NCBI RefSeq assembly: GCF_021391495.1
Contig: NZ_CP090063.1
Coordinates: 4,464,001 to 4,528,000, forward strand
Length of the DNA: 64,000 bases
DNA from: Amycolatopsis acidiphila
GTDB lineage: Bacteria; Actinomycetota; Actinomycetes; Mycobacteriales; Pseudonocardiaceae
Reading direction: 5' to 3'
Shown one piece after another: positions 36,124-45,024 of the stretch. The notes beneath the pieces are model-generated. The model was not told where the DNA came from, made no database searches, and saw only the letters and a list, made by a program, of their open reading frames with translations. Every line of letters begins with the position of its first letter. Positions within the stretch are counted from its first letter, which is position 1. The position numbers and the translations under genes were made by a program.

Positions 36124-37068
36124 GTGCGTGATATCGCCGTCTTCAGCGGTAGTGCCCATCCCGAGCTCGCCGCGGAGATCTGCGCGCAGCTCGGCGTCGA
36201 CCTCTACCCGGTCAGCGTGCGCCGGTTCGCCAACGACTGCCTCGAGGTCCAGCTGCAGGCCAACTGCCGCGAGCGCGACGTGTTCCTCATCCAGCCGATC
36301 GTCGCGCCGGTGCAGGAGCACCTGGTCGAGCTGCTGCTGATGCTCGACGCCGCACGCGGCGCGTCGGCGGCCCGCACGACCGTCGTGATGCCGCACTACG
36401 CCTACGCCCGGTCCGACAAGAAGGACGCACCGCGCATCTCGATCGGCGGCAGGCTGGTCGCGGACCTGCTGGTGACCGCCGGGGCGAACCGGGTGCTGGC
36501 GATGACGCTGCACTCGCCGCAGGTGCACGGGTTCTTCAGCGTCCCGGTCGACCATCTGCACGCCCTGCGCGAGCTGGCCGGGCACTTCCGCCGCTACGAC
36601 CTGAGCAACACCACGGTCGTCTCCCCCGACCTGGGCAACGCCAAGCCCGCCTCGCACTTCGCGCGGCTGCTCGGGGTGCCGGTCGCGGCCGGGGCCAAGG
36701 AGCGCTTCGCCGACGACAGGGTCGCCATCAGCTCGATCATCGGCGAGGTCGCCGGGCGCGACGTGATCGTGCTCGACGACGAGATCGCCAGGGGCAGCAC
36801 GGTACTGGAGCTGCTGACGCGGTTGCGCGAGTTCGGCGTCCGGTCGATCCGCGTGGCCTGCACGCACGGGCTGTTCGCGGGCGGCGCGCTCAAGCGCATC
36901 GGCGACCAGCCGGACGTGCTGGAGATCGTGTGCACGAACACGGTTCCGGTGCACCCGGAGGAGTCGGCACCGAAGCTCACGGTGCTGTCGATCGCGCCGG
37001 CGCTGGCGGAGGCGATGCGCCGCATCCACAACGGCGAGTCGGTCAGCGCCCTGTTCGACGCCCAGTAG
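36124..37068 (+). CDS. Ribose-phosphate diphosphokinase (PRPP synthetase) paralog
   Basis: A 314-residue protein of the Prs family. The pyrophosphate-binding MTLHSPQVHGFF region and YARSDKKDAPRISI are kept; the PRPP-binding loop reads DDEIARGST in place of the usual DDxIDTAGT, and the catalytic flexible loop retains Lys-x-Arg in AKERF. Canonical Prs proteins are very well conserved, so this is a divergent copy, possibly specialised for a secondary pathway. GTG start. It is downstream of the MFS gene but no operon link is evident. Confidence 0.85.
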   Translation: MRDIAVFSGSAHPELAAEICAQLGVDLYPVSVRRFANDCLEVQLQANCRERDVFLIQPIVAPVQEHLVELLLMLDAARGASAARTTVVMPHYAYARSDKKDAPRISIGGRLVADLLVTAGANRVLAMTLHSPQVHGFFSVPVDHLHALRELAGHFRRYDLSNTTVVSPDLGNAKPASHFARLLGVPVAAGAKERFADDRVAISSIIGEVAGRDVIVLDDEIARGSTVLELLTRLREFGVRSIRVACTHGLFAGGALKRIGDQPDVLEIVCTNTVPVHPEESAPKLTVLSIAPALAEAMRRIHNGESVSALFDAQ

Positions 37069-37095: not shown

Positions 37096-38019
37096 CTAGG
37101 CCAGGTGCTGTCTGCTGAGGAAGTCCCACATGATCGTCGCCGCGCCCGCCTGCTCCCCCACGTACGTCGTGTAGGGCGCTTTCGTTCGGGTGGCCGTCGG
37201 CCAGAAGTGCGTCAGTCCTGAGTAGACGGCCGCCGAGAGTTGCGTGCCGCCCCGGCAGCCGGTCCACGACGTGAGCGTCAGCGGGCCCGTGCGGGTGGTG
37301 GCGCCCGCACCCGTACAGCCGTTGCGGGACTGCCACTGCGCGACCGCCTGGTCCAGCGCGATCGTCGCGGTCGGCGAGAAGTGCTCGCTGCGCACCACCG
37401 AGTCGTTGGTGCCGCTGGCCATCAGCGCCGAGATCGGTTTCCCGCCGCCGCACGGGGCGAGCGGAACCGCACCATAGGTCGCGAGTGCGGCGAAAACGTC
37501 CGGATGCTCGCAAACCTCTTCGAACGACAGTTTCGCCCCATTGCTGTACCCGACGAGATAAATCCGGCGCAGGTCGCTTTCGAAATAATGTGACGCGTCG
37601 GCGGCGAGCCGGGTCAGGAATTCCGTGTCGTGCACGCCCTCCTTCGCCGCGACCCCACAGCAGCCGTGCCCGGCGTTCCAGGACTGGGAGATCCCCAGCG
37701 GGTAGACGATGTTCACCAGCCCGCGCTCGGCGTAGGGCAGGAACCCCGTGCGGGCCGACTCCTGCTGCGCGGTGATGCCGCGCCCGTGCAGCATTATCAG
37801 CAACGGAAGTCCCTTGTGTCGCACCGAAGACCCGACCGCGAGGTACGTCCGCTTCATCCCGTCCACGGTCAGCTGCCGCTGCACCGTCGTGGTGCCGTCG
37901 GTGCTCGCCGGGGCCGCCGTCGCCGCATGTCCCTCCGACACGACGGGCTCACTGACAGTCGGCGCCGAGCAGGCGGCTAATGTGAGGAACGCGCCAACAA
38001 CGAGGAACAACCGTCTCAT
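37096..38019 (-). CDS. Secreted lipoprotein esterase (PHB-depolymerase/LpqC-like)
   Basis: A 307-residue alpha/beta hydrolase of the poly(3-hydroxybutyrate)-depolymerase/esterase group. A lipobox (TLAAC, Cys17) makes it a surface lipoprotein. The nucleophile elbow is GYSNGAK, with an oxyanion HGRG segment upstream (LLIMLHGRG) and late His in THFWPTA. Cys pairs (GHGCCG, NGCTG, TGCRG) fit disulfides outside the cell. ATG 38019 is preferred over ATG 38064. Related enzymes hydrolyse feruloyl/acetyl esters or short polyesters; exact substrate not known. Stands alone and divergent from the ligase operon. Confidence 0.85.
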   Translation of the reverse strand: MRRLFLVVGAFLTLAACSAPTVSEPVVSEGHAATAAPASTDGTTTVQRQLTVDGMKRTYLAVGSSVRHKGLPLLIMLHGRGITAQQESARTGFLPYAERGLVNIVYPLGISQSWNAGHGCCGVAAKEGVHDTEFLTRLAADASHYFESDLRRIYLVGYSNGAKLSFEEVCEHPDVFAALATYGAVPLAPCGGGKPISALMASGTNDSVVRSEHFSPTATIALDQAVAQWQSRNGCTGAGATTRTGPLTLTSWTGCRGGTQLSAAVYSGLTHFWPTATRTKAPYTTYVGEQAGAATIMWDFLSRQHLA

Positions 38020-38206: not shown

Positions 38207-39694
38207 ATGGCGATTGTGTCCCGGTTGCTGTCCGCCCGGGCGCAGGAGCGGGGGGACGCGCTCGCGTTCCTGTCCGGGGCGGACGAGCGGGCACTGACCT
38301 GGCGTGCGGTCGCCGAGCACGCCGCGCACTGGCGGCACGAGGTGGCGCCGGGCAGCAGGGTCGGCCTGGTGATCGCCGATCCGCTCACGTTCACCGCGGC
38401 CTACCTGGGCTGCCTGTCCGCAGGGCTGACCGCGGCGCCGATCGACCCGCGGCTGACCGCCCCGGAGCTGGCCGAGGTGCTCGCCCGGCTGCGGGTGGAC
38501 GTGCTCGCGACCGACCAGGAGGAGCCGGTCATCTCCGCCGACCTGGACATCGTGGCGGTCGATCTCGCCGGCCCGCGCCGGATCTGGTCGGCCACGACGG
38601 CGAACCGGCCCAGCGACGGCGCCGCGTTGCGGCCCGCGGTGCTGCTCACCAGCTCCGGCACGACCGGGCGCCCCAAGGGGGTCCCGCTCACCGAGTGGCA
38701 GCTGATGCACGCCGCCGGGCGCGTCGCGCGGCACCACCGGTTCGGCCCCGGCGAGCGCGGCTACACCCCGCTCCCGCTGTTCCACGTCAACGCCCAGGTG
38801 ATGGGCCTGCTGGCGACCGTCGCCGGCGGTGCCTCGCTGGTCATCGACCGCCGCTTCGAGACCGACGAGTACTGGTCGCGCGTGGAGCGGCACTCCCCCA
38901 CCTGGCTCAACGCCGTCCCCGCCATCCTCACCTCACTGGCCCAGCGGCCCGCGCCGCCCGCGCACGTGGTGGACCGGGTGCGGTTCGCGCGCTCGGCCTC
39001 GGCGCCGTTGCCGCCCGGGACGGCCCTGGCCTTCACCGAGCGCACCGGGCTGGGCGTGCTCGAGACCTACGGCATGTCCGAAGCCGCGGGCCAGATCACC
39101 TCGAACCCGCTGGACCCCCGGCTGCGCCGGGCCGGCTCGGTCGGCCTGCCGGTCGAGGTGGAGCTGATCGTCGCCGGGCCCGACGGCCGCGAGGCGCGCC
39201 CCGGCGAGGAGGGCGAGGTGCTGCTGCGCGGGCCGCAGATCGTCGGCGAGTACCTCGAGCTCGACGCGGACGGGCCCGAGCGGACCCGGTCCGCGCGCAC
39301 CGCGGAGGGCTGGCTGCGCACCGGTGACGTCGGCGTCCGCGACGAGGCCGGGTTCCTGCGCCTGGCCGGCCGCGCGGACGACGTGATCAACCGCGGCGGC
39401 GAGAAGATCTACCCGCAGGAGGTGGAGAACGTCCTGCTGGCGCATCCCGGCGTCGCGGCGGTCGCCGTCGTCGGCGCGCCGCACGAGCGGCTCGGCCAGG
39501 TGCCGGTCGCGTTCGTGACCACCCGCCGGTCGGACCCCGAGGAGCTCAAGGAGTCGCTGCGGGCCTGGTGCGAGCAGCGGCTGACCCGCTACAAGCGCCC
39601 GACCGTCGTCGAGGTCACCGACGCGCTGCCGGTCGGCCCGACCGGGAAGGTGCTGCGGCGCGCACTGCGGTCCGAGCTGGCGGGCAGCCAGTGA
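38207..39694 (+). CDS. AMP-dependent acyl-CoA ligase / adenylating enzyme
   Basis: A 495-residue ANL-superfamily ligase. The A3 phosphate loop LLTSSGTTGRPKGVP, the YGMSEA core, the A7-like LRTGDVG and the C-terminal lysine in PTGKVLRRAL are all present. Activates a carboxylic acid as an acyl-adenylate and, if CoA-dependent, forms the thioester. ATG 38207 follows GGAGGG. First gene of a five-gene, partly overlapping operon with a membrane acyltransferase, a ComA-like synthase, a VOC protein and a histidine phosphatase. Product of the pathway unknown; oxalyl-CoA-synthetase-like enzymes are also close in length. Confidence 0.88.
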   Translation: MAIVSRLLSARAQERGDALAFLSGADERALTWRAVAEHAAHWRHEVAPGSRVGLVIADPLTFTAAYLGCLSAGLTAAPIDPRLTAPELAEVLARLRVDVLATDQEEPVISADLDIVAVDLAGPRRIWSATTANRPSDGAALRPAVLLTSSGTTGRPKGVPLTEWQLMHAAGRVARHHRFGPGERGYTPLPLFHVNAQVMGLLATVAGGASLVIDRRFETDEYWSRVERHSPTWLNAVPAILTSLAQRPAPPAHVVDRVRFARSASAPLPPGTALAFTERTGLGVLETYGMSEAAGQITSNPLDPRLRRAGSVGLPVEVELIVAGPDGREARPGEEGEVLLRGPQIVGEYLELDADGPERTRSARTAEGWLRTGDVGVRDEAGFLRLAGRADDVINRGGEKIYPQEVENVLLAHPGVAAVAVVGAPHERLGQVPVAFVTTRRSDPEELKESLRAWCEQRLTRYKRPTVVEVTDALPVGPTGKVLRRALRSELAGSQ

Positions 39695-40851
39695 GCAAAC
39701 GCGGGGAGCACCTGTACTACGTCGACCTGATCCGCGTGCTGACCGTCGGCCTCGTCATCGGCACGCACGTCCTCGCGTTCGCCCCGGTGCCGCCGACCGT
39801 GCTCGTCGGTGCGCTCGGCATGGTGTTCCACGTCAGCCGCGAGGTGTTCTTCCTGCTCACCGCCTTCGTGCTGACCTACAGCACCGGGCGCAAGAAGGTC
39901 CGGTGGCCGAAGTTCTGGGCGCGGCGCTACCTGTTCGTCGTCGTGCCGTACCTGGTCTGGACCGTCGCGTACTTCTTCGCCAACGGCGGCCCGTTCTTCG
40001 GCGAGGCGTTCGTGCAGCAGCTGCTCACCGGCACCGCGCGCTACCACCTGTACTTCCTGCTCGTCTCGATGCAGATCTACCTGGTGTTCCCGCTGATCCG
40101 CGCGCTGCTGCGGGCGACGGAACGGTGGCACGGGCCGCTGCTGGGGCTGGCCGTGCTGTTCCAGCTCGCGTTCGCCTACGCCGTGCAGCACCAGTGGGAC
40201 CTCGGCCCGCTCTCGGGCTGGGTGCGGGCGCCGGACGCGCTGCTGCCCAGCTACCTCGGCTACGTCCTGGCCGGCTCCATCGCCGCCTGGCACCGGGACG
40301 CGCTCGTCGGGTGGACCCGGCAGCACGTGCGGCTGGTGTTCGGCGGCGCGGCGAGCGTGGTCGCGCTCTCGGTCGTCGTCTACCTGGTGCAGGTCTGGGG
40401 CGACGGCCAGCCCCCGCTGCAGGCGAGCATGGTGTTCCAGCCGGTGGTGGCGGTGGAGAGCGCCGCGATCGCGTGGACCTTCCTCGCCACGGGCCTGCTG
40501 TGGCAGGAGCGGCGGCGGTTCGGCGAGAAGCTCGTCACCGCCACCTCCGACGCCTCGTTCGGCATCTACCTGCTGCACCCGCTGGTGCTGCAGGGCGCGC
40601 TGCTCGGCGCCGGCGCGACCGGGCTGGTCGACTTCGCCCAGACCGTGCCGAACGCGCTGGTGCTGGTCGTGCTCGTGGTGGTGTTCCTGCCGCTGCTCTA
40701 CCTCGTGTCGGGGCTGCTCACCGCGGCCGCCCGGCGCACCCCGGTCAGCCTCGCGCTCACCGGCCGGCCGTGGTCGCGGCCCGTCCGGCGCAGCGTGCCC
40801 GCCCGCGGCAGCGAAGACCTCGCGCTCGCGAACACAGGAGGAGCCCGATGA
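39691..40851 (+). CDS. Membrane acyltransferase (acyltransferase-3/OafA-like)
   Basis: A 386-residue integral membrane protein with about ten hydrophobic segments. Arg15 in LIRVLTVGLVIGTHV and the later FEVFF/REVFFLLTAFVL and FGIYLLHPLV motifs are typical of the acyltransferase-3 family, which moves acyl groups from acyl-CoA across or at the membrane to sugars or lipids. GTG start overlaps the ligase stop (GTGA), so the ligase may supply its acyl donor. It ends overlapping the ComA-like gene by 4 bp. Acceptor unknown. Confidence 0.88.
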   Translation: MSKRGEHLYYVDLIRVLTVGLVIGTHVLAFAPVPPTVLVGALGMVFHVSREVFFLLTAFVLTYSTGRKKVRWPKFWARRYLFVVVPYLVWTVAYFFANGGPFFGEAFVQQLLTGTARYHLYFLLVSMQIYLVFPLIRALLRATERWHGPLLGLAVLFQLAFAYAVQHQWDLGPLSGWVRAPDALLPSYLGYVLAGSIAAWHRDALVGWTRQHVRLVFGGAASVVALSVVVYLVQVWGDGQPPLQASMVFQPVVAVESAAIAWTFLATGLLWQERRRFGEKLVTATSDASFGIYLLHPLVLQGALLGAGATGLVDFAQTVPNALVLVVLVVVFLPLLYLVSGLLTAAARRTPVSLALTGRPWSRPVRRSVPARGSEDLALANTGGAR

Positions 40852-41606
40852 GCCGTACCACGATGATGATCGACCCGGGCCTGCCGACCGGCCTGTTCAC
40901 CGACGTGATCAGCAGTCACGGCCAGTACGTCGGGCTGGTCAAGTTCGGCTGGGGCACCGCGCTGGTGACCCGCGACCTCGACCGCAAGCTGGGTGTCCTG
41001 CGCGAAGCCGGGATCGGCTTCTACTTCGGCGGCACGCTGTTCGAGTGGTACCTGGTGCAGGACCGCCTCGACGACTACCTCGCGCTCGTCGAGCGCACCG
41101 GTGCGACGCACATCGAGGTGTCCAACGGCACGATCCCGCTCGATCAGCCCGCCAAGGCCGGGTACGTGCGGCGGATGGCGCAGTACCGGCCGGTGCTCTC
41201 GGAGGTCGGGTACAAGGACGCCGAGCGCTCGGCGCAGCTGTCCCCCGCCGACTGGGTCGGCGCGATCCGCGAGGACCTCGACGCCGGTGCCGAGCTGGTG
41301 ATCACCGAGACCCGCGAGAGCGGCCGCAGCGGGATGGCGCGTCCGGACGGGCACCTGCGCGACGACGTGCTGCGGGCCGTGCTCGCCCGGGTGGACGCCG
41401 GGCGCCTGCTGTTCGAGGCCCCCACGAAGGACCTGCAGGTCGAGCTGATCCGGGAGCTGGGGCCCGAGGTCAACCTCGGCAACATCGCCGCCGCCGACCT
41501 GGTCGGGGTGGAGACGCTGCGCCGCGGCCTGCGCGGCGACACCCTGCTGCAGATGACCCCCTGCGCGGCCGGATTCCCGCTGCCGCGCACCGTTTCCGTC
41601 GCCTGA
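40848..41606 (+). CDS. Phosphosulfolactate synthase-like protein (ComA family)
   Basis: A 252-residue TIM-barrel protein of the ComA family. It keeps GLVKFGWGT, FYFGGTLFEW, ATHIEVSNGT and the SEVGYKD loop (about 118-124), followed by AELVITETRESG. Family enzymes add sulfite to phosphoenolpyruvate to give phosphosulfolactate, the first step of coenzyme M synthesis in methanogens and of spore sulfolactate in bacilli. An actinomycete does not make coenzyme M, so another sulfonate end-product is likely. ATG with AGGAGGAG site; overlaps the acyltransferase gene by ATGA. No ComB phosphatase homologue is present; the operon's histidine phosphatase may substitute. Confidence 0.85.
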   Translation: MSRTTMMIDPGLPTGLFTDVISSHGQYVGLVKFGWGTALVTRDLDRKLGVLREAGIGFYFGGTLFEWYLVQDRLDDYLALVERTGATHIEVSNGTIPLDQPAKAGYVRRMAQYRPVLSEVGYKDAERSAQLSPADWVGAIREDLDAGAELVITETRESGRSGMARPDGHLRDDVLRAVLARVDAGRLLFEAPTKDLQVELIRELGPEVNLGNIAAADLVGVETLRRGLRGDTLLQMTPCAAGFPLPRTVSVA

Positions 41607-41629
41607 GGACAGTCCACAAAGGAGCATTG

Positions 41630-42028
41630 ATGCGCGACACGCACGACGCCTGCCACATCGCGGTCCCCGCCAGGGACCTCGACGAGGCGGTGGAGTTCTA
41701 CGTCTTCGGCCTCGGCGCGAAGATGGCCCGCCGCTACGACGACCGGGTGACCTTCGACTTCTTCGGCGACCAGCTGGTGTGCCACCTGTCCGACGACGTC
41801 CCGGCCGAGCCGGTGATGTACCCGCGGCACTTCGGGGTGAGCTTCGCCCGCGCCGAGGACTTCGACCGCCTCGTGCGGCTGGTGGAGAACCGCAAGCTGC
41901 GCACGCTGGCCGGGCCCGCGGTGCGGTTCGAGGGCACCGCCGAGCAGCACCGCACGATCGCGCTCGCCGACCCGTCGAACAACGTGATCGAGTTCAAGAA
42001 CTACGACGACCCGCGGCTGCAGTACTGA
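41630..42028 (+). CDS. VOC-family protein (glyoxalase/bleomycin-resistance fold)
   Basis: A 132-residue vicinal-oxygen-chelate protein with a two-module beta-alpha-beta-beta-beta fold; metal-binding candidates are His9 (DACHIAV), a His in the middle strand and the Glu in NNVIEFKNY. These proteins act as metal-dependent lyases, isomerases, epimerases or antibiotic-binding proteins. Within the operon it could act on a sulfolactate or oxo-acid intermediate; this is conjecture. GGAG site before ATG; its stop overlaps the next start (TGATG). Confidence 0.88.
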   Translation: MRDTHDACHIAVPARDLDEAVEFYVFGLGAKMARRYDDRVTFDFFGDQLVCHLSDDVPAEPVMYPRHFGVSFARAEDFDRLVRLVENRKLRTLAGPAVRFEGTAEQHRTIALADPSNNVIEFKNYDDPRLQY

Positions 42029-42627
42029 TGGCCGTTCTGCACCTGGTGCGCCACGGCGAGAGCGAGTGGAACCTCGCCGGGCGCGTGCAGGGCCAGTCGC
42101 CCGAGGCCGGTGCGCTCACCGCGCGCGGGCTCGACCAGGCGGCGCGCACGGCGGCCCTGCTCGCCGAGCGCCACCCGGACGCGGCGGCGATCTTCAGCAG
42201 CGACCTGCCGCGGGCCAGGCAGACCGCGGACGTCATCGCCGGGGTGCTCGGCCTGCCGGTGCACACCGATCCGCGGCTGCGCGAGCAGGATCTGGGCTCC
42301 CTGGAGGGTTTGCGGTTCGCCGACCCGCTGGACGGGGGCATCGTGCAGGACGCGATCGACCGGCTGTGGCGGGAGCCCTGGCGGCGCCCCGGCGGCGGGG
42401 AGAGCATCACCGACCTGTACGAACGGATCCACGCCACGCTCGACCGGTACGCCGGGGAGCACGAGGGACGCGAGCTGGTCCTCGTCACCCACGGCGGTCC
42501 GGTCCGGGTGGCCACCACCACGGCCGACCCACGGCTGCGCGAGCCGGTCCCACGGGTCGAGGTGGGCAACGCTACGGTGACCACACTGGACCGGTCGGGC
42601 CGGTACTCGCCGGACGCTTCGCGCTGA
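42028..42627 (+). CDS. Histidine phosphatase superfamily protein
   Basis: A 199-residue phosphatase. The phosphohistidine motif is R-H-G-E (residues 8-11), the second His lies in VTHGG, and the two Arg positions for phosphate binding are present (LVRHGESEWN, SSDLPRARQTA). A phosphoglycerate-mutase-like fold with phosphatase activity on small phosphorylated acids is expected, which would match removal of the phosphate from a ComA product. Last gene of the operon, one base overlapping the VOC gene. Confidence 0.9.
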   Translation: MAVLHLVRHGESEWNLAGRVQGQSPEAGALTARGLDQAARTAALLAERHPDAAAIFSSDLPRARQTADVIAGVLGLPVHTDPRLREQDLGSLEGLRFADPLDGGIVQDAIDRLWREPWRRPGGGESITDLYERIHATLDRYAGEHEGRELVLVTHGGPVRVATTTADPRLREPVPRVEVGNATVTTLDRSGRYSPDASR

Positions 42628-42765: not shown

Positions 42766-45024
42766 ATGTCGTTCGAGACGGGAAGCAGAGCGTGGCGCGT
42801 CCTCGGCGCGGTGGCGGCGGCCGCGGTCGCCGTGGCCGCCGGGCTGCTCACCAGCCAGGGCAGGCTGCCCGCGGCGGTGGGCTGGACGGTCGAGGTGGTG
42901 GCCGCGGCCGCCACGGGCCTCCTCGTGCTGCTGGTGTTCCTGCCCCGGCGACGCGGACAGCGTGCCGAGCCGCCGCCCGGCGCGGCCCCGGCACGACCGG
43001 AGCTCGGCGGTACGGGGGCGATCCACATCCTGCGGATCAGTGAGCTGGACCCGATCCGGCTGGGCGTGCACCCGGCCTGGAAGCTGCCGGGCGGGGCGGC
43101 GATGCCGCCGTACGTGCCGCGCACGGCCGACGCCGAGCTCGACCGCGCGCTCGCCCGCGGCGGGCTCGTCCTCGTCCAGGGCGACGCGGCCGCGGGCAAG
43201 ACCCGCACCGCCTACGAAGCCGTGCTGCGCAACGCGGCCCGGCTCGGCTGGGAGGCGGTGGTCGTGCCGCAGGACGAGACGGCCCTGCGCGAGCTCGCGC
43301 GCACCCCGCCGCCGCGGGCCGTGGTGTGGCTCGACGACATCGAGCGCTACCTGACCACCGACAGCCTCGACGACAACCTGCTGACGGCGTTGTGCCCGCG
43401 GATGCGTTCCGACAGCGTCGTGCTGGCCACCCTGCGCACCCGCGCCCGCGAGGACCTGGGCATCGACGCCGAGGGCACCGGCGGCCGCTCGCGCCGGGTA
43501 CTCACCCGCGTCACCCCGGTCCACCTGGAGCGGCGCCTCGACCGCGCCGAGACCGCGGCGGCCCACCGGCACCGCACCGACGCCCGCATCGCGGGCGCGA
43601 TCGTCGGGGACACCGGCGGCGGGCTGGCGGAGTACGTCGCCGCGGGCCCGCAGGCGGTGCAACGCTGGCGCTCCGGGCGCGAGGGCGAGAACGAACCGGG
43701 CGCCGCGCTCGTCAGCGCGGCGGTGGACCTGCGCCGCGCGGGATATCTCGACCCCGTGCCGCTGGACTGGCTGATGACGCTGCACCCGGTGTACCTCTCG
43801 GATCGTTTCCGCGCCAGGTTCGGCGAGACGGACCTGGCGGGCGCGCTCGACTGGGCGGTGCAGCCCGTGCGCGGGGCGAGCTCGTGCCTGATCCCGGCCG
43901 GGCCGAACCGCTACGTCGCGTTCGACTACCTCGTCGACTCGGTGGACCCCGGCGACGAGGTGCCGGAGGCGATCTGGCAGCGGCTGCTGGGCACGCACCT
44001 GCTCACCGCGGACCAGATGTTCCGCATCGCGCGGGCGGCGGTCCGGTTCGAGCGGCTGAGCGAGGCCACCCGGCTGTGGACGGGGCTCGCGCGGGGGCGC
44101 GACCAGTTCGCGATGTTCAACCTGGGCTGGGCCGCGCAGGCGAGCGGGGACGAGGCGAGCGCCGAGCAGTGGTACCTGCGGGCGGCCGAGGCCGGCAACA
44201 GCTGGGCGATGTCCAGCCTGGGCACGCTGGCGGAGAACCGGGACGACGTCGCGATGGCGGAGCTGTGGTACCGGCGCGCGGGTGAGGCCGGGGACACGAC
44301 CGGCATGACCAACCTGGGCGGGCTGTTCGCGCAGACCGGGCGGATCGACCAGGCACGGGAGGCCTACCGGCAGGCGGCGGCGGCGGGCGATCCCAACGGG
44401 TCGCGCAAGGAGGCCGTGCTGGAGTTGCTGCACGGGGACCGCAAGCGCGGGGCGGACCTGCTGCGGCGGGTCGCGCTCGCCGGGGACCCGGCCGCGGTGC
44501 GGTTGATGGGGCTGCTGTCGCAGACCGACGAGCAGGAGCCGCACCGCCCGGACGTGGAGGCGCTGCGGCGGCTGGCGGCGGAGATGGGCGACGGCGAGGC
44601 GGCGCTGGACCTGGCGCGGAACCTGTGGAACCAGGGCGATCTGGACGCGGCGGAGACGTGGTTCCGGCGGGCCGCCGAGGGCGAGAACGGGCGGGTCGCC
44701 GAGTTCGGGCTCGCGGTGCTGCTGGAGCAGCGTGGCCGCGGCGGGGACGCCGAGCAGTGGTACCGGCACTCGGCCGAGCACGGCCTGCCGGAGGCGATGC
44801 TCAACCTCGGCACGCTGCTGCAGGAGCGCGGCGAGTACGACGAGGCGGAGAGCTGGTACTACCGCGCGCTGCGGTCCGGGCACCTGCCGGCGGAGGTGAA
44901 CCTGGGGGCGCTGCACTGGCGGCGCGGCAACCTCGAGGAGGGCCGCAGCTGGTACCAGCGCGCCGCCGACCGCGGTGACGCGCTGGCGAAGCAGGCGCTG
45001 GAGAACCTCGAAGCGCGGGGCTGA
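42766..45024 (+). CDS. Membrane-anchored P-loop NTPase with C-terminal TPR/Sel1-like repeats
   Basis: A 752-residue protein with two N-terminal membrane helices (about 10-30 and 38-60), then a cytoplasmic P-loop domain with Walker A GDAAAGKT (139-146) and Walker B VVWLDD (186-191), and from about residue 460 a run of TPR/Sel1-like helical repeats with A-E-x-W-Y-x-R-A-A-E-x-G signatures. The layout is that of STAND-type switches: sensor repeats, NTPase, effector; here the effector may be the membrane segment or an unseen partner. The upstream ORF extension lacks coding signal. Function is not known; a signalling or stress/defence role is possible but unproven. Confidence 0.8.
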   Translation: MSFETGSRAWRVLGAVAAAAVAVAAGLLTSQGRLPAAVGWTVEVVAAAATGLLVLLVFLPRRRGQRAEPPPGAAPARPELGGTGAIHILRISELDPIRLGVHPAWKLPGGAAMPPYVPRTADAELDRALARGGLVLVQGDAAAGKTRTAYEAVLRNAARLGWEAVVVPQDETALRELARTPPPRAVVWLDDIERYLTTDSLDDNLLTALCPRMRSDSVVLATLRTRAREDLGIDAEGTGGRSRRVLTRVTPVHLERRLDRAETAAAHRHRTDARIAGAIVGDTGGGLAEYVAAGPQAVQRWRSGREGENEPGAALVSAAVDLRRAGYLDPVPLDWLMTLHPVYLSDRFRARFGETDLAGALDWAVQPVRGASSCLIPAGPNRYVAFDYLVDSVDPGDEVPEAIWQRLLGTHLLTADQMFRIARAAVRFERLSEATRLWTGLARGRDQFAMFNLGWAAQASGDEASAEQWYLRAAEAGNSWAMSSLGTLAENRDDVAMAELWYRRAGEAGDTTGMTNLGGLFAQTGRIDQAREAYRQAAAAGDPNGSRKEAVLELLHGDRKRGADLLRRVALAGDPAAVRLMGLLSQTDEQEPHRPDVEALRRLAAEMGDGEAALDLARNLWNQGDLDAAETWFRRAAEGENGRVAEFGLAVLLEQRGRGGDAEQWYRHSAEHGLPEAMLNLGTLLQERGEYDEAESWYYRALRSGHLPAEVNLGALHWRRGNLEEGRSWYQRAADRGDALAKQALENLEARG

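Follow-up and report, generated by a model that had tools for sequence, protein, structure and literature searches.

A conserved ComA-linked gene set in Amycolatopsis acidiphila and its possible role in forming a C3 sulfonate ester

Gene content of the locus

The window analyzed here is a 64,000-nt stretch of contig NZ_CP090063.1 (positions 4,464,001 to 4,528,000) from A. acidiphila, a soil actinomycete. Five of its open reading frames (LIG, AT, COMA, VOC, and HP) follow one another on the plus strand, overlapping or 23 bases apart, and a sixth gene, EST, lies divergently upstream:

37096..38019, minus strand: EST, predicted lipoprotein and putative esterase resembling extracellular short-chain PHA depolymerases, divergent from LIG (NF050058, 7.5e-32)
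38207..39694, plus strand: LIG, AMP-forming acid-CoA ligase (PF00501, 6.5e-58; PF13193)
39691..40851, plus strand: AT, membrane acyltransferase-3 (AT3), GTG start, 4-base overlap with the LIG stop (PF01757, Acyl_transf_3, 3.8e-28)
40848..41606, plus strand: COMA, phosphosulfolactate synthase family, 4-base overlap with AT (PF02679, 1.7e-69)
41630..42028, plus strand: VOC, probable metal-binding vicinal-oxygen-chelate protein, 23-base gap after COMA (Glyoxalase, 1.6e-11)
42028..42627, plus strand: HP, histidine phosphatase branch 1, 1-base overlap with VOC (PF00300, His_Phos_1, 1.5e-44)

All five plus-strand proteins exceeded their Pfam cut-offs, and the positions and families that an earlier note on this DNA had given for these genes are borne out by the open reading frames and these matches. 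Purine-rich stretches precede LIG, COMA, and VOC. EST was absent from that note's gene list. It falls below cut-off for NF050058 (110.9 bits; cut-off 150) and TIGR01840 (38; 107.85) and just above it for Esterase_PHB (23.2; 23.0; 4.5e-05), and has a lipoprotein-like start (MRRLFLVVGAFLTLAAC, with the start codon picked by eye) and a GYSNG motif.

Two further neighbors, a PRPP synthetase (36124-37068) and a TPR/STAND-like protein (42766-45024), were considered as pathway members and set aside: across 22 genome loci, they follow the cassette solely in Amycolatopsis.

Conservation of the gene set

The cassette is seen in other Amycolatopsis, in Micromonosporaceae, and in uncultured Actinomycetota, partly with altered gene orders. 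LIG, AT, COMA, and VOC occur together in Amycolatopsis, Planosporangium, Winogradskya, and metagenome-assembled genomes (MAGs); the order is rearranged at two loci (L018 and L021), and is COMA-VOC-LIG-AT at two others (L093 and L095). The search in relatives that the earlier note had proposed thus found the genes together in related genera, in rearranged form as well. Since the arrangement is conserved at the protein level in these genera, it is not a matter of chance, and since it recurs even where the order has changed, it is a real unit: judged by these comparisons, the LIG-AT-COMA-VOC-HP set is a genuine conserved one.

Partners were counted in 23 VOC-linked loci with full flanks, window included, all picked for having VOC. 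LIG is present in 21 of these and AT in 18 (all three Kutzneria loci lack it), while an HP relative is found in 16. The proposal of a five-gene unit therefore stands as to conserved co-location, but five genes are not the minimum, given the counts for HP and AT. The sixth gene that travels with the cassette is EST, or in some lineages a GDSL hydrolase; one or the other is present at 17 of the 23 loci, with an EST relative no more than 7.5 kb from ComA at 14.

Two loci are simpler: L014 has ComA-VOC-HP without LIG or AT, and the Nostoc locus L019 has ComA-VOC alone. LIG and AT thus appear to represent one fate of the ComA-VOC product among others. These two loci are also what one would expect if free sulfolactate, or a VOC derivative of it, were a compatible solute or sulfur store, with LIG, AT, and the esterase a separate envelope-acylation system carried along. 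In the same direction, VOC and ComA are found on common contigs in Bacillota (a match at the contig level, not adjacency), and passages in PMC517825 put sulfolactate at 5% of the dry weight of B. subtilis spores. We nevertheless consider this explanation quite unlikely, as the presence of LIG with ComA-VOC at nearly all the loci counted, in several gene orders, exceeds what accidental neighbors would be expected to give.

A mobile origin was also considered and rejected. The ComA profile (A3) has no relative in viral contigs and the VOC profile (A2) just two distant matches, the better at 43%, which argues against a phage source. A plasmid source is disfavored because the ComAs in 20 plasmid records differ in kind, none of them reaching 60% identity.

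The ComA homologue

COMA, the sole ComA in the A. acidiphila genome, matches PF02679 over its full length (234.4 bits; cut-off 25.2). Its closest solved relative is 1u83 from B. subtilis (2.3e-60), with 1qwg also matched (3e-44). In an alignment of 16 diverse ComAs, all columns with agreement in 15 or 16 sequences are kept in COMA except position 29; K123 aligns with M. jannaschii K137, which we take to be catalytic. The ComA-like identity given in the earlier note is thus upheld by homology and by the near-invariant residues, and membership of COMA in the ComA family is well supported.

Two features could point to a different reaction. COMA scores 209.6 bits against the NCBIfam archaeal ComA equivalog TIGR03849, below the cut-off of 280, and its position 29 is Gly, where the other 15 aligned sequences have Asp (D40 in M. 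jannaschii). Among the 120 closest homologues listed, this position is D in 95, G in 17, E in 4, S in 2, and T and N in 1 each. The VOC-linked ComAs also form a clade with its own partner (below), and a plant ComA homologue, HSA32, has a different role. On these grounds the clade might have given up the PEP/sulfite reaction and make a different acid, either C3 or derived from enolpyruvate, with the new chemistry finished by VOC. We regard this as very improbable: the remaining near-invariant residues are kept, K123 included, and the closest solved relative comes from a sulfolactate producer (B. subtilis, according to part of PMC517825).

VOC as a partner of ComA

The association was also examined in a sample independent of VOC, 396 Actinomycetota genomes including the source genome. 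VOC proteins of this subfamily occur in 6 of these, in all six less than 100 bases from ComA; 32 of the 38 genomes with a ComA lack this VOC. The VOC-linked ComAs form a single clade with support of 100/100, in which 36 of 41 rows are linked (35 of 40 in another tree). Two ComA paralogues without VOC (L017 and L101) fall inside it, and the ComAs of coenzyme M clusters (L090, L091, and L092) fall outside. Within this clade VOC is the steadiest ComA partner, more so than HP or AT. Contigs that carry both VOC and ComA also occur in Bacillota and in MAGs.

The VOC protein has an invariant residue set rich in Arg and Lys, and belongs to the fold group of the fosfomycin resistance enzymes FosA, FosB, and FosX. 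It is 16-22% identical to these, from which it differs in an additional invariant His (H52) and in having ComA as its genetic partner. A role in fosfomycin resistance was rejected on NCBIfam scores: 22.3 bits for the Fos model (cut-off 295), and 19.6 for the Nostoc relative (cut-off 180).

On a Geminocystis plasmid, a VOC protein (42.5%) lies in a stretch whose 10 annotated features include no ComA, and that plasmid is absent from the 20 plasmid ComA records. The protein is a member of a sister VOC group with matches in 54 of 146 Cyanobacteriota genomes (E <= 1e-25); among Cyanobacteriota matches, the ComA-linked Nostoc copy scores 218.8 bits and all others 138 or less. An apparent ComA-VOC fusion (P0113, 376 aa) was not counted, its tail resembling, by eye, VOC in a shifted frame.

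Comparison with known ComA pathways

To our knowledge few biosynthetic routes that begin with ComA are known: coenzyme M synthesis in methanogens and in bacteria, and that of Bacillus spores. The methanogen ComA-ComB pathway shares with this locus the ComA family and its near-invariant residues (38% identity between M. jannaschii ComA and COMA). In B. subtilis, the ComA homologue of the yitCD operon (1u83) is 45% identical to COMA over 229 aligned positions, and the operon is inferred, in passages of PMC517825, to make phosphosulfolactate. The A. acidiphila locus differs from yitCD in having LIG, AT, VOC, and EST.

Both the methanogen pathway and B. subtilis have ComB (PF04029), whereas the whole A. 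acidiphila genome gave no match to it in a search that was positive in 7 of 14 genomes as a control. This lack is consistent with a substitute phosphatase. HP, with an RHG motif at residues 8-10, is a candidate phosphosulfolactate phosphatase; the earlier suggestion that it stands in for ComB fits the genome, but not the seven of 23 loci from which HP is missing. Two of the loci without HP (L096 and L097) have related HAD hydrolases beside the cassette.

The bacterial coenzyme M pathway (xcbB1-xcbE1, in Xanthobacter, Mycolicibacterium, and Nocardioides) likewise starts with ComA, and some actinomycetes have it. ComA is found on plasmids of Mycolicibacterium and Nocardioides, the Mycolicibacterium copy with adjoining lyase genes, and coenzyme M genes are described in both (PMC8727900, in part). 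For some actinomycetes, the earlier note is accordingly wrong in denying them coenzyme M synthesis. No XcbC1 or XcbD1 lyase and no XcbE1 was found among the ten cassette and neighbor proteins scanned. Searchable literature, most subscription journals lying outside it, yielded no description of a ComA-linked cassette and no joint mention of phosphosulfolactate synthase with the VOC family or glyoxalase.

The ligase and acyltransferase

AT matches PF01757 at 98.9 bits (cut-off 31) and has eight clusters of hydrophobic segments. R15 and H26 are invariant across 11 aligned AT rows, with the spacing of what we take to be the AT3 R-x10-H motif. According to passages in PMC9558356, AT3 proteins use acyl-CoA as donor, with succinyl groups possible; they acylate extracytoplasmic acceptors, mostly sugars; and a separate SGNH protein can receive acyl groups from them. 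The AT3 envelope acyltransferases OafA, MdoC/OpgC, and ExoH go with SGNH or other extracytoplasmic partners. The cassette resembles them in having an AT3 membrane protein whose gene lies close to that of a predicted secreted hydrolase, but it adds an acid-CoA ligase and ComA, and the proposed acyl group is a sulfonate.

Among solved structures, LIG is nearest to oxalate-CoA ligases (5ie0, 2.4e-66; also 6qjz), which is weak ground for a putative substrate size. Because of this likeness, and because AT3 acceptors are extracytoplasmic, the acyl group may be sulfolactate, which would then not be the acceptor. The acylated sulfolactate product of the earlier note is then one of two readings. It would have LIG activate a fatty or hydrophobic acid and AT3 acylate the sulfolactate hydroxyl, giving a sulfonolipid-like acyl-sulfolactate with the esterase for turnover. 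The same gene set would serve; among NCBIfam models, LIG comes closest to those for long-chain acyl-CoA ligases (PRK06187, 9.5e-90; 301 bits, cut-off 476), with none over its own cut-off among the 25 of 104 matches listed; and AT3 proteins can handle longer acyl groups, such as isovaleryl for CarE (PMC9558356, in part). Against it are the solved LIG relatives, the mostly sugar acceptors of AT3 outside the cytoplasm where sulfolactate would be expected, and the lack of any recurring acyl carrier or lipid gene at the cassette loci examined. We judge it unlikely.

A proposed pathway

We tentatively favor, at a little under even confidence, an operon for synthesis and deployment of a C3 sulfonic acid, ester-linked to an extracytoplasmic acceptor. 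By homology, ComA would convert PEP and sulfite to 2-phospho-3-sulfolactate. VOC, with a metal, may act on this C3 polyanion or a product of it, as its observed association with ComA suggests. HP, or a different phosphatase in other lineages, would remove the phosphate to give sulfolactate, which LIG would activate and AT3 transfer to the extracytoplasmic acceptor. Outside the cell, EST, or elsewhere a GDSL hydrolase, might help in the transfer that forms the ester or take the ester off again. Counted against this model are G29, the missed archaeal cut-off, the long-chain LIG models, the HP and AT gaps, the simpler loci L014 and L019, the clade's paralogues without VOC, and the 32 ComA genomes that lack this VOC. 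Of the earlier note as a whole, gene identities, ComA homology, and co-location hold, while the generalization on coenzyme M, the five-gene unit, and the acylated product are not supported as worded.

A broader version, which we think unlikely, would make VOC, as a metalloenzyme of the Fos fold, the general second enzyme after ComA in a sulfonate pathway widespread among bacteria, replacing both ComB and the XcbC1 lyase by dephosphorylating or rearranging phosphosulfolactate. Actinomycetota would then activate the sulfonic acid and show it as an ester on their surface, an envelope modification that would be new and bring strong negative charge.

VOC is in any case a steady ComA partner, and the structure of a VOC protein from Alicyclobacillus acidocaldarius (3rri), public since 2011, has a title that names no specific function. 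C3 sulfonates such as sulfolactate are part of sulfur cycling in the environment. If the favored model is correct, the cassette would represent another ComA-initiated route, tying sulfonate synthesis to envelope acylation.

The operon and its ComA

The five gene types that an earlier note had named are borne out: each product matches its Pfam family over the cut-off, and the genes are tightly packed on one strand (38207-42627), with mutual overlaps or a gap of 23 bases.

Features of the locus (window positions)
37096-38019, opposite strand, upstream of the operon: EST, predicted lipoprotein esterase, extracellular PHA-depolymerase type
Within 38207-42627, + strand: LIG, acid-CoA ligase (AMP-binding)
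Within 38207-42627, + strand: AT, membrane acyltransferase (Acyl_transf_3)
Within 38207-42627, + strand: COMA, phosphosulfolactate synthase (ComA)
Within 38207-42627, + strand: VOC, vicinal-oxygen-chelate protein (Glyoxalase)
Within 38207-42627, + strand: HP, histidine phosphatase (His_Phos_1)

The A. acidiphila genome (8.18 Mb, one contig) has one ComA, and the nearest loci are those of Amycolatopsis. Just after the operon (42766-45024) lies a gene for a large protein with TPR repeats and a weak nSTAND3 match, which among the 22 genome loci adjoins the operon in Amycolatopsis only.

The nearest solved structures to the window ComA are B. subtilis 1u83 (2.3e-60; 45% identity over aligned positions) and M. 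jannaschii 1qwg (3e-44; 38%). Columns with at least 15/16 agreement among 16 diverse ComAs are all kept except position 29, Asp in that alignment and G here; among the 120 closest ComA homologues listed, it is D in 95, G in 17, E in 4, S in 2, T in 1, and N in 1. The protein falls short of the archaeal ComA equivalog cut-off. Weighed together, these sequence features make activity with PEP and sulfite likely.

Association of VOC with ComA

In 396 Actinomycetota genomes not chosen by VOC (own genome counted), ComA is present in 38 and this VOC, at E <= 1e-38, in 6 (among the matches listed, with up to 10 first-look candidates scored per genome). In all six, the VOC match begins at most 100 bases from the end of a ComA match; none was found apart from ComA in this sample, and VOC is absent from the remaining 32 of the 38 ComA genomes. 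ComA thus also occurs in settings other than this pairing. An order-wide sample has ComA in 19 of 397 genomes. This VOC is absent from the stretch or genome of other Actinomycetota ComAs (L054-L069, L071, L074, L076, L078-L083).

Outside Actinomycetota, 120 listed of 1072 relatives of the Nostoc VOC were compared with 120 listed of 2670 ComA relatives. Longest contigs >3 kb of equal size coincided 20 times among the matches listed, Nostoc itself being one, vs. 0.175 on average with one list shifted by 1-60. Nine are <=20 kb; three are >2 Mb, and therefore show just VOC and ComA in one genome. Named sharers are Anoxybacteroides, Bacillus songklensis, Halalkalibacterium, and Alkalihalobacillus, with Evansella coinciding on a whole-chromosome contig. 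VOC and ComA there share contigs, which is sharing and not measured adjacency. The 120 listed VOC relatives of 1072 also include Legionella londiniensis and Sulfurimonas aquatica. Cyanobacteriota have a sister VOC subfamily (L045-L053). It was matched at E <= 1e-25 in 54 of 146 genomes, that of Nostoc among them, and its members retain the His/Glu set and lack R39/D38.

In a 72-row ComA tree, VOC-linked rows form one clade (support 100/100) with 36 of 41 rows linked, five Bacillota rows being counted from matching contig size and name only; the first tree, lacking L073, gave 35 of 40. The other five rows are two on contigs that stop at ComA (L030, L033), two paralogues without VOC whose genomes have a VOC-linked ComA as well (L017, L101), and one Alicyclobacillus ComA. 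L090, L091, and L092, whose ComAs belong to clusters of the coenzyme-M type, were outside this clade in the first tree.

Gene order and membership

Window proteins were mapped onto 22 loci from one scan of GTDB genomes. The gene set recurs in other genera with variation in order and membership, AT or HP being absent in some. Amycolatopsis loci have EST divergent from LIG-AT-COMA-VOC, with HP in most; Planosporangium and Winogradskya have LIG-AT-COMA-VOC-EST, three Kutzneria loci LIG-COMA-VOC-HP without AT, and Nostoc COMA-VOC only. Other orders are AT-LIG-COMA-VOC (L018), LIG-COMA-AT-VOC (L021), and COMA-VOC-LIG-AT with HP on the opposite strand (L093, L095). A GDSL/SGNH-type hydrolase lies close to the cassette in L020/L100, L021, L093, L096, and L097; of three scanned against Pfam, those of L096 and L020 are above a GDSL cut-off and that of L093 slightly below.

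Thirty-one loci, window included, were picked for holding VOC, and 23 have full flanks (our limit: 3.9 kb before and 3.6 kb after the ComA midpoint); L018, with LIG and AT only, was left out by 5 bases. The 23 VOC-chosen loci have LIG in 21, AT in 18, HP in 16, EST in 14, GDSL in 5, and either hydrolase in 17. An operon copy in the same genus (G334, L041/L042) has ComA, AT, and HP each matching in two pieces, as if through decay or bad sequencing, and the A. acididurans LIG (L006 7419-8856) is two adjoining pieces in different frames.

ComB and other phosphatases

No ComB family member was found in a search of the whole A. acidiphila genome. PF04029 was tested in 20 different genomes with VOC-linked ComA (a 21st, G405, with ComA places identical to G734, was treated as a copy): it is absent from 14, in five the matches are weaker (E 1e-8 to 2e-19) though they pass the Pfam cut-off, and in Nostoc the match is strong (2.9e-88). 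HP is in turn absent from 7 of the 23 full-flank loci, with related HAD hydrolases adjoining the cassette in two (L096 4234-5349; L097 8768-9334). No one known phosphatase, then, accompanies all VOC-linked ComAs, while VOC does, and for this reason VOC might act on phosphosulfolactate in place of ComB. The argument here is one from absence; these genomes may hold phosphatases elsewhere. On a Legionella lytica plasmid (L089 3802-6714), an annotated gene of 2913 bases contains ComA, and a 2-phosphosulfolactate phosphatase (ComB) gene comes immediately after it.

Proposed pathway and product

ComA would make phosphosulfolactate, to be processed by VOC and a phosphatase; LIG would form a CoA thioester, AT3 would move the acyl group onto an extracytoplasmic acceptor, and EST or GDSL would work on the ester outside the cell. 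Sulfolactate has precedent in PMC517825, as do AT3 proteins with acyl-CoA donors, succinyl groups, and transfer to a separate SGNH protein in PMC9558356. Sulfolactate could be the acyl group itself, or LIG could activate a fatty acid with which AT3 acylates sulfolactate. The best NCBIfam matches of LIG are long-chain models, under their cut-offs, which speaks for the latter. Among solved structures, the closest to LIG are oxalate-CoA ligases; this points to a small polar acid as substrate, so that sulfolactate may be the acyl group.

ComA chemistry is already known, and in the portions of the literature searched we found no description of a ComA-VOC pairing, or of a ligase-AT3-esterase branch with ComA. 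The premise that coenzyme M is not made by actinomycetes is wrong for some of them: ComA is encoded on plasmids in both Mycolicibacterium chubuense NBB4 and Nocardioides JS614 (with adjoining lyase genes in NBB4), and PMC8727900 describes coenzyme M biosynthesis genes in both. None of the lyase-type coenzyme M genes lies at the window locus, so coenzyme M is still unlikely to be what it makes.
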